Positions 6,274 through 8,260 of a stretch of DNA of 64,000 nt are shown here, piece by piece. The notes beneath the pieces are model-generated. The model was given only the letters and a program-made list of their open reading frames with translations. It did not search any database and had not been told where the DNA came from. The translations under genes were made by a program, and so were the position numbers. Within the stretch, counting starts at the first letter, position 1. Every line of letters begins with the position of its first letter. The DNA is from Promicromonospora thailandica (GTDB lineage Bacteria; Actinomycetota; Actinomycetes; Actinomycetales; Cellulomonadaceae), in assembly GCF_024171955.1 (NCBI RefSeq), contig NZ_JAMTCS010000003.1, forward strand, positions 124,001 to 188,000, written 5' to 3'.

Positions 6274-6821
6274 GTGGGATGTTCAACACCGTTCCCCGGA
6301 TGCGCACGGGGTACGACAAGGACGAGGTCGACGAGTTCTTCGAGCACGCCCGGCAGGCCTACGAGGGACGTACGGCGGACAGGCTGACGAGCGCGGACAT
6401 CCAGGCGTCCACGTTCGACCTGACCCGCGGTGGTTACAACACGCACGAGGTCGACGCGGCGCTCGACCGGCTCGAGGCGGCGTTCATCGCGCGCCAGCGT
6501 GCCGAGTACGCGGCCGCGCACGGCCAGCAGGCGTGGATGAACGCGCTCGCGGAGCGCGCGCGGTCCCTCTACGGGCGGCTGGGCCGACCGGACGGCGAGA
6601 AGTTCGCGCCCGCCGACCGTGGTTCGCAGGGCTACGACAAGGACGACGTCGACGACCTGTGCGACCGGCTGATCGGCTACTTCGACCGGCAGGAGCCGCT
6701 GACCGCCGGGGACATCCGGTCGGCCACGTTCGGCCGGGCCCGCGGGGCGGACGCCTACGACGAGGCATCGGTCGACGCGTTCCTGAGCCGCGCGGTGGAG
6801 GTCCTGCTGGGCGTCGAGTGA
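6270..6821 (+). CDS. DivIVA-domain protein
   Basis: The 183-residue product holds three short DivIVA-like units, [15 protein letters not shown] at about residue 10, [16 protein letters not shown] near 52 and [14 protein letters not shown] near 123, each followed by a short helix. DivIVA proteins mark curved membranes and organise polar growth. This one lacks a long coiled coil, so it may be an accessory rather than the main polar scaffold. The GTG start overlaps the rlmN stop in a GTGA arrangement; an ATG at 6279 is an alternative. A 94-bp palindrome follows. Confidence 0.8.
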
Positions 6822-6828
6822 CCCCCGC

Positions 6829-6922
6829 TGCCGAAGTAGAACTGTGGCGAGATAGAACTGGGGCCGGAGCACCGATCGGTGCTCCGGCCCCAGTTCTATC
6901 TCGCCACAGTTCTACTTCGGCA
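6829..6922. repeat. Perfect 94-bp palindrome between convergent genes
   Basis: Each 47-base arm is the exact reverse complement of the other, with no spacer (centre between 6875 and 6876). Each arm contains TAGAACTG twice. It lies between the convergent DivIVA and SH3b genes, so it can serve as a bidirectional terminator in RNA. Its length and perfection exceed what termination needs. Confidence 0.9.
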
Positions 6923-6976: not shown

Positions 6977-8260
6977 TCAGCAGGCCGGTGCCACCGGGCC
7001 GGACGAGCCGGTGTTGACGTAGGCGTCGGAGACCCAGTTGCCAGTGCCGATCCGGTTCCAGAGGTTCGTGGTGCCGTAGGTGCCGGTCACGGTGCTGCCC
7101 GTCGCGGTGCACTCGATCACCACGTTCGCGTGGTTGCCCGCCTGCCCGACGGCGGCGTGCCCGGTGCCGGGCCCCGACCGCACGGTGAGCGGGCCCCCGC
7201 TGGTGCGGACCACGCCCCGGGGGCCGCTGCCGGTCCACAGGTAGGTCACGGTGGTCCACGCGTTGTCGGTCAGCCCGAGGCCGTCCCAGAAGGTGCCGTC
7301 GGCAAGGTCGATCCCGGCCGGGTTCGCGACCCGGCGGCCGAACCCGTCGAGGCCGCCGTTGTAGCCGTCCTGGTAGGCGGCCTGCGCCTCGGGCCTGCCC
7401 TGCGGCAGGTCGGCCCACGACTGCCGGGTCCCGGCCGGGTTCCAGTAGTCGTCGGTGGTGTTCCAGGGGCCGACGTCCCACACCGGCTCGTAGGCGCAGC
7501 GGCCGGTGCTCTCCGCGCACACGCGCACCGAGTAGCTGCCCGAGCCCGCGGACGACAGGCCGCGCCGGGACGGCAGGGCCACGAAGTGGTCCCGCTGCGT
7601 GATGACGTGGCCGTTCGCGGTGGTGCCGCCCACCAGGCCCTCGCGCGTGGCGAAGATGCGGTAGGCGCGCTCGCCGGACGTCGGCGCGGCCTCGACGTCC
7701 TGCAGCGACCGTGAGCGGGGCGCCTCGGGCGTCAGGGTCACCGCCCGCACGGCCGGGCCGCCGTCCTGCCGGCCGACGAGCGTGACGCGCGCCTGCACCG
7801 TGCCGGACGGAGCGGGCAGGGCCGACCCGGCGGGGACCCACTCGGTCCAGGCGTCCGGACCCTGGCCGGGGAGCCGGCCGCGCACGTCGACCAGTACCTC
7901 GGTGCCGGCCGGGACGGTGTCGTCGACGACGGCGTCGACCGCACCCGCGGGGGAGTCGAGCGTCACGGGTTCGGCGACGAGCTGGCCGGAGGCCGTGACG
8001 GCGGACGGGCTCGCGCCGCCGCCCCCGGCCGATGCGGCGCCCGTCGCGCCGGCGAGGCGGAGCGCATCGCCGGCCCGGCGCACGCCGGTGTCGTCGGCGG
8101 TGAGGGTGGCGAGGTCGACGGACCACGCCTGGTCCGTGAGGTCGGGGCCGGTGCCCGGGGTGACGGCCGCGACCGCCGTCCCCGAGACGACCAGGAGCGC
8201 GCAGGTGGTGGCGGCCAGGAGCGCACCACAGCGTCGGGTCTTGCGTACCTGGATCAGCAT
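6977..8260 (-). CDS. Secreted protein with C-terminal SH3b-like domain
   Basis: The 427-residue product starts with a signal peptide (basic RKTRR, hydrophobic LLAATTCALLVVSG, likely cut after AVA near residue 31). A low-complexity linker and a beta-rich region follow. The middle part (VRVCAESTGRCAYEPVWDVG) has a CX6C pair. The last 80 residues (GGPLTVRSGPGTGHAAVG) match a bacterial SH3 domain, often a cell-wall binding module. I see no catalytic motif, so the role is unknown, perhaps in the wall. A TAGATT hexamer ends six bases before the ATG. Confidence 0.7.
   Translation of the reverse strand: MLIQVRKTRRCGALLAATTCALLVVSGTAVAAVTPGTGPDLTDQAWSVDLATLTADDTGVRRAGDALRLAGATGAASAGGGGASPSAVTASGQLVAEPVTLDSPAGAVDAVVDDTVPAGTEVLVDVRGRLPGQGPDAWTEWVPAGSALPAPSGTVQARVTLVGRQDGGPAVRAVTLTPEAPRSRSLQDVEAAPTSGERAYRIFATREGLVGGTTANGHVITQRDHFVALPSRRGLSSAGSGSYSVRVCAESTGRCAYEPVWDVGPWNTTDDYWNPAGTRQSWADLPQGRPEAQAAYQDGYNGGLDGFGRRVANPAGIDLADGTFWDGLGLTDNAWTTVTYLWTGSGPRGVVRTSGGPLTVRSGPGTGHAAVGQAGNHANVVIECTATGSTVTGTYGTTNLWNRIGTGNWVSDAYVNTGSSGPVAPAC

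Follow-up and report, generated by a model that had tools for sequence, protein, structure and literature searches.

The perfect palindrome at positions 6829 to 6922 of the window (the whole 64,000-nt stretch of DNA analysed here) is one copy of a dispersed, modular repeat family. On balance, we favour the reading that these copies are bidirectional 3′-end hairpins with REP-like dynamics. The observations that count for this are the convergent location of the copies, their closeness to gene ends, the mirroring of their arms and the retention of a hairpin while its sequence changes.

On the favoured reading, both convergent transcripts would enter the palindrome soon past their stop codons and would read the same long hairpin. 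The hairpin may then serve as a bidirectional end element that stops or destabilises RNA polymerase; alternatively, it may mark the point of 3′-end trimming and protection after polymerase collision or Rho-dependent termination. The arms would lengthen and shorten by 16-bp units, with their complementarity maintained by compensatory change or arm-to-arm copying. Copies would spread between sites within the genome, so that the unit sequence drifts genome-wide, and the hairpin at a given site would either persist or give way to another hairpin.

A perfect palindrome separates two convergent genes

The sequence-only reading had described a perfect 94-base palindrome with 47-nt arms and zero spacer, and repeat finding bore this out: the two arms are 100% complementary with 0 nt between them (Table 1). 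It had further placed TAGAACTG twice in each arm at a spacing of 15 bases. The duplication stands; the spacing is corrected to 16 nt start-to-start (6837 and 6853), which is the unit period of the palindrome family in the genus Promicromonospora. A very stable RNA hairpin between convergent genes had also been proposed, in agreement with the predicted folds of 126 nt around the palindrome (−111.8 kcal/mol on the plus strand and −113.7 kcal/mol on the minus strand; z −17.3 and −18.7, respectively). The native stability was reached by 0 of 200 dinucleotide shuffles. The TGA stop codon of the upstream DivIVA-domain gene ends 7 nt before the palindrome, and a Pfam search with the opposing gene returned no match. 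A search of Rfam 15 yielded 10 matches at E values up to 5, none at its own gathering score, and membership of an Rfam family was therefore rejected.

Table 1 Coordinates of the palindrome, its parts and the flanking genes, in window positions
Feature	Position	Strand	Evidence or remark
Perfect palindrome, one element copy	6829..6922		Repeat finding; RNA folds
Left arm: boundary GCCGA, one full 16-bp unit, second truncated unit, half of central stem	6829..6875	+	
Right arm, exact reverse complement of left arm	6876..6922	-	
Outer word CGAAGTAG (CGARRTAG); the first unit begins with its TAG	6832..6839	+	
16-bp unit TAGAACTGTGGCGAGA	6837..6852	+	Zero-mismatch pattern match at C3:130837
Second word CGAGATAG	6848..6855	+	
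Second, truncated unit TAGAACTGGGGC	6853..6864	+	
Central stem CGGAGCACCGATCGGTGCTCCG	6865..6886		Similar centre in eight other own clusters
Right arm, inner word CGAGATAG	6896..6903	-	
Right arm, outer word CGAAGTAG	6912..6919	-	
Upstream convergent gene, DivIVA domain	6279..6821 (ORF start possibly 6270)	+	Pfam DivIVA, E 1.8e-12
Opposing convergent gene	6977..8260	-	Stop 54 nt beyond palindrome

Assemblers can generate perfect zero-spacer palindromes. That this one is such an artefact appears unlikely, since TAGAAC-type elements occupy the window site in the assemblies of seven other congeners, some eroded on one arm, and at least 45 clusters exist in the own genome, many of them with imperfect arms. 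As an explanation of the structure, an assembly artefact or a chance palindrome is scarcely credible.

The palindrome belongs to a modular repeat family

BLAST with 151 bases around the palindrome gave at least 98 matches with both strands counted (40 of 71 candidates scored). The two-unit pattern TAGAACTGNGGCNNGATAGAACTG, allowing up to two mismatches, was found 40 times forward and 31 times in reverse in the own genome, against 0 for the control; when a single unit with one mismatch was sought instead, matches numbered 163 and 151, and those to its control 81 and 70. When clusters are defined as two or more units, the own genome contains at least 45, a lower bound drawn from 41 loci in which one split array (L076) is counted twice. 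Scanning the named genomes with TAGAACNNNNGCGAGATAGAAC returned 59 stretches, 58 from Promicromonospora and one from Vibrio (L058), which was omitted as a presumed chance match. By BLAST, the element is present in 11 of the 13 genus genomes, own included. A literature search covering Promicromonospora and Cellulomonas repeats and terminators and actinobacterial REPs returned no such elements at the level of titles and the starts of abstracts, with subscription papers mostly outside its coverage.

Copies in the own genome follow a common plan: after a GCCGARR boundary come tandem 16-bp units of TAGAACNNNRGCGARR, then a centre that may be short or long and the units in inverted orientation, and YYTCGGC closes the element. 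In the own genome an arm contains one to five strict units, and elsewhere as many as six; the two arms are often unequal. Elements differ in length in whole-unit steps of 16 bp and reach about 170 nt. Several copies possess perfect arms. A GATC-type centre within a GC-rich stem occurs in nine own clusters including the window copy. Allowing for the seeds, unit positions 7-10 are variable and most others nearly fixed, TAGAAC and GC being kept; the information-content values from strict units are fixed by the search pattern itself, and those from relaxed units are softened and still seeded.

The arms mirror one another in unit order. Counted outward from the loop (the inner register), relaxed units were identical in 47 of 109 own cases against 33.8 by order shuffling (2 of 2000 shuffles reached this value), and in 38 of 98 cases from other species against 21.7 (0 of 2000). 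In the outer register the relaxed-unit signal was weak in the own genome (41 of 109 against 32.7; 51 of 2000) and clear in other species (35 of 98 against 22.3; 1 of 2000). With strict units, the outer register showed no ordering beyond that of the shuffles: 17 of 53 were identical in the own genome (18.7 by shuffling) and 11 of 30 in other species (8.4; 241 of 2000). This counts against the favoured reading. The native unit order gave the best or tied-best energy in 24 of 41 own elements and 31 of 41 others.

Two arrangements stand apart from this plan. At L076:3565-4904 (G000:C1, about 167064-168403), an array is interrupted, its two halves standing about 1.25 kb from each other; between them lies a single gene of about 335 amino acids with its own terminator-like hairpin, whose product presumably resembles AbiEi-type antitoxin proteins. 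The copies at L113 and L115, at the ends of contigs C12 and C14 and each less than 800 nt from the contig end, have their right flank in common and differ in left flank and unit number.

Copies lie where genes converge

Gene calls were made with a home-made codon-usage caller. Among the 45 own clusters, 34 are convergent, 11 tandem and 0 divergent, compared with 23, 166 and 45 of the 234 element-free neighbouring pairs in own loci. Many copies between convergent genes, in the genome and in relatives, had been anticipated as support for a repeat family, and this is the distribution that the searches returned. The 58 other Promicromonospora loci comprised 36 convergent, 17 tandem and 0 divergent sites with 5 at a locus edge, against 38, 202 and 63 element-free pairs; these sites are partly orthologous to the own ones and so are not independent. 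The outermost unit is no more than 31 nt from the gene end on 65 of 68 convergent gene-end sides, the median distance being 16 nt; on 13 of 79 gene-end sides the stop codon is a TAG of the element itself.

A stable hairpin soon after the stop codon, as in an intrinsic terminator, is therefore present in the position expected of one. The U-tract that should lie past the stem was not found: among 87 sides of own clusters, at least six Us in ten nucleotides occurred in 0 and at least four in 2, the mean over the ten nucleotides being 1.26 Us against 1.40 expected from composition. This counts against a 3′-end hairpin. Reportedly, the RNA polymerase of mycobacteria depends on a U-tract, a dependence that speaks against intrinsic termination of the simple kind and in favour of trimming, polymerase collision or a link to Rho. 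Additionally, a terminator could do with a much shorter stem, as the sequence-only reading had fairly remarked, and this too weighs against our reading; a 3′-end role is indicated despite the excess stem length, since most scored sites in relatives keep some hairpin.

Hairpins also occupy sites that lack the element. In own element-free gaps of 30-300 nt, stems scoring at least 12 were seen between 9 of the 16 convergent pairs and 21 of the 121 tandem ones, and between none of the 37 divergent pairs; convergent gaps shorter than 30 nt had them in 0 of 13. Thus 13 of the 29 own element-free convergent pairs have a short gap and no stem, implying that a hairpin is not universally needed; they count against the favoured reading.

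Known terminators resemble the elements in part. According to the available text of a Bacillus cereus study (PMC5381666), bidirectional intrinsic terminators likewise use one symmetrical hairpin for two 3′ ends and undergo compensatory stem change, and conservation is higher when a terminator serves both genes of a convergent pair than when it works one way only. The elements described here differ in having no U-tract, a repeated family sequence, tandem unit arrays and replacement of one hairpin by another at the same site. For Streptomyces, the accessible part of the TERMITe study (PMC12207403) describes terminators whose first ten bases contain 3-4 Us and whose hairpins, which show covariation, are the longest and most stable; high-GC actinobacteria of this kind have few strong U-tracts (PMC12207403, same part). 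Long stable hairpins, few Us and covariation in high-GC actinobacteria are thus common to both (PMC12207403). The present elements have even fewer Us, and the Streptomyces hairpins are not described as repeat copies or as unit-built in that part of the text (PMC12207403). The family bears on how convergent genes end in high-GC actinobacteria.

A hairpin tends to persist at orthologous sites while its sequence is exchanged

We compared the window site across the 13 genus genomes. Eight carry the TAGAAC type, in some cases with erosion of one arm. In G001 the array has a unit altered to TAGWCAC and retains the word and the 16-bp period; four genomes lack the word. In three of these (G008, G010 and G012) a different stem is visible by eye, to which the end of the opposing gene contributes in part; the fourth, G009, has by eye no clear hairpin. 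In the only three congeners with the same stem length (G004, G011 and G007), 43, 40 and 36 of 46 positions form Watson-Crick pairs; 4, 3 and 7 pairs are changed on both sides and still paired, while 3, 5 and 6 are changed and broken. The poorer pairing of these orthologues, together with G009, counts against the 3′-end hairpin.

A further 31 own sites were sought in G001, G006 (P. soli) and G008, giving 70 orthologous sites with both flanks placed; ten further rows with one flank were left out of this number. Word-bearing arrays were found at 20 of the 70 (13 of 27 in G001, 7 of 20 in G006 and 0 of 23 in G008), the absence in G006 being over-stated, since the 31 sites were picked as a set for most of which no word-bearing P. 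soli orthologue was at hand; for G008, part of the places located there were covered. At the 13 sites in G001, the sequence following the word is changed (TAGTCAC type), with the word and the 16-bp period kept.

Excluding one site containing Ns, 49 orthologous sites lacked the word. Another hairpin was present in 41 of these by a stem score of at least 12, a cut-off that ten shuffles per site did not approach beyond 10, and a fold z below −3 was likewise obtained in 41. This tolerant score replaced a search for perfect stems with loops of up to 10, which had missed wide-loop hairpins. The remaining 8 sites, very short gaps among them, have no strong stem and count against the favoured reading. 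The prevalence of other hairpins nevertheless implies, as far as these comparisons go, that a hairpin tends to stay at a site as one sequence is swapped for another. The hairpin itself appears to be maintained where genes converge, with the repeat that happens to spread in a lineage supplying the sequence.

Some of the replacement hairpins are themselves repeats. Sharing of 14-mers with another such site, counted with one-flank sites included, was seen for 10 of 19 in P. soli, 7 of 24 in G008 and 0 of 16 in G001; one sharing pair in G008 has a longer segment in common and not a hairpin. Stems of the type GTGTCAGAC...GTCTGAC form another repeated hairpin at convergent sites in several congeners (L064, L104:1280-1329, L307 and L319). 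Two more repeated types, with the 14-mers CGACAAGCTCGACC and GATCGTTGCGCCTA, occupy convergent sites in P. soli (L264, L260, L269, L263 and L257). At two P. soli loci, runs of N lie inside hairpins and may be unsequenced palindrome centres or masking in the collection.

These observations suggest that hairpins in terminator position can be spreading, mutually replacing repeats, blurring the boundary between a terminator and a REP-like repeat. The family further provides natural replicates, with different hairpins in different species at the same gene pair, such that conservation of the hairpin and of the word can be directly tested against each other.

Copies appear to be exchanged between sites

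Ten own copies could be matched to an orthologue in P. soli and compared with 30 P. soli copies in all; just 2 of them resembled their orthologue most closely. The window copy shares 93% identity with a copy from a different P. soli site and 79% with its orthologue. Some of these similarity scores are lowered by differences in array length and, in one orthologue, by Ns. Non-orthologous copies are often the closer ones, which suggests exchange or homogenisation of copies from site to site.

A RAYT (Y1_Tnp) gene is typical of REP genomes, though not universal, and REPs linked to RAYT have a conserved tetranucleotide foot. The gene was found in 0 of 19 genomes (own and 18 relatives), the control being positive in 5 of 14 named genomes. 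The sequence-only reading had suggested a mobile, REP/BIME-like palindromic element. The many-copy repeat family held; assignment to REP/BIME did not, given the lack of RAYT in the 19 genomes and an anatomy of tandem 16-bp units mirrored across the axis. In the available text of PMC1525189, REPs are dispersed extragenic palindromes with many copies per genome, often between convergent genes, and the elements are repetitive, palindromic, extragenic and numerous in the same way. REPs measure 21-65 bases in that text (PMC1525189), whereas the present elements reach about 170 nt by 16-bp units, have no RAYT in 19 genomes and show perfect arms in several copies. The same source notes that REPs were in later work stated not to act as specific terminators (PMC1525189, as available), a point against the 3′-end hairpin. 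Accordingly, we call the element REP-like; its identity as a REP is not supported.

The likeness raises the possibility that the palindrome is a selfish element resembling a REP or a MITE, which some enzyme mobilises in trans and which is tolerated only in 3′-end gaps, where any effect on termination would be a by-product and the TAG words of the element can even serve as stop codons. Such an origin would fit the 8 of 10 own copies for which a non-orthologous P. soli copy is the more similar, the large turnover between congeners, the stops formed by the element's TAG, and the splitting of the L076 array by a 1.2-kb gene block. It is opposed by the lack of a RAYT match in the 19 genomes, by unit numbers that differ between arrays and so speak against a fixed transposing unit, and by orthologous sites, at which no target-site duplication was seen by eye and which mostly hold another hairpin and not the clean empty gap of a MITE. 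Phage, plasmid and viral-contig collections gave no match at the settings used, which also speaks against it. We therefore hold a selfish palindrome to be unlikely, though deserving of some weight. As far as those collections reach, a phage or plasmid origin was rejected.

The CGARRTAG word extends beyond the genus

A family confined to the genus was initially indicated by the two-unit pattern, which matched 9 of 200 genomes, all of one genus. This was rejected: the shorter word CGARRTAG is the shared part of arrays across genera of the taxonomic family, which we take to be Cellulomonadaceae in the GTDB sense. The inverted pair CGAGGTAG...CTACCTCG was present in 84 of 200 family genomes and 17 of 25 genera, and a single genome contained as many as 178 matches when overlapping ones are included. 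In 14 genera at least one genome has three or more matches; the control pattern was matched once apiece in 11 family genomes (both counts read off the table). Outside the family and within the same class, 38 of 392 genomes matched, with at most 3 each, which is the control level (58 genomes, read off the table). The TAGAAC pair pattern was restricted to 4 of 396 genomes, namely the own genome, two of genus g23 and G559, with one match. Weak BLAST hits in three other genera led to related arrays of longer period; the hit in G084 (L133) proved to be a GATC-centred hairpin only, without the word.

Thirty loci in other family genera, from 30 genomes and only five genera (17 from g7 and 8 from g20), were distributed as 16 convergent, 11 tandem, 2 divergent and 1 coding. 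Among 19 loci outside the family, taken from 19 of the 38 matching genomes, 13 lay inside coding sequence. A set of 39 elements from seven genomes of four genera was 23 convergent, 16 tandem and 0 divergent, compared with 9, 52 and 20 element-free pairs beside them; 2 of its 40 loci held no cluster under the rule, and L204 and L212 repeat L154 and L155 of the 30-locus set. The spacing of the word is 16 bp in Promicromonospora, 19 in g20 and g23 and 21 in a g7 genome, with 20 also seen in g7; g3 showed no regular array of the word.

Conservation of the word across genera exceeds what a plain hairpin requires, and to that extent counts against the favoured reading. In line with the protein-binding site that the sequence-only reading had named as an option, it could mean that a sequence-specific protein or RNA-binding factor reads CGARRTAG, the arrays forming multi-site docking platforms, for example a roadblock that separates converging polymerases. 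The word is constant while spacer and period change between genera (16, 19 and 20-21 bp), units retain TAGAAC and GC and vary at positions 7-10, and the units read at the 13 G001 sites have a changed sequence after the word, with the word and the 16-bp period kept. Against such a factor, we have no candidate for it, spacings of 16, 19 and 21 bp share no common helical phase, homogenisation or descent alone could explain the identity of the word, and many orthologous sites hold word-less hairpins. We consider word recognition of this kind quite improbable. A broader version is unlikely but somewhat less so: family-wide modular palindromes at convergent genes, with CGARRTAG read by a trans-acting factor and unit length and letters drifting in concert with that factor in each lineage, would constitute a sequence-specific bidirectional 3′-end or polymerase-collision system.

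DNA uptake sequences offer another precedent for a lineage-specific word in inverted pairs at gene ends; Kingsford in 2007 reportedly described them as paired to form terminators. TAGAAC differs in that it is not scattered singly in the window: of its 7 matches there, 3 fall outside the element (2.06 expected in total), and an uptake-sequence reading of it was rejected on this count. The shorter CGARRTAG is over-represented outside the element also, occurring 12 times in the window against 1.88 expected, 8 of these outside. We suspect that the surplus arises from Tyr-Phe and Tyr-Leu codon pairs; the word may also be scattered for another reason. A related array may exist outside the family as well: at locus L187 of G303, from another family of the order, two CGAGGTAG words occur with a spacing of 18 bp, and this genome has three word-pair matches, above its control.
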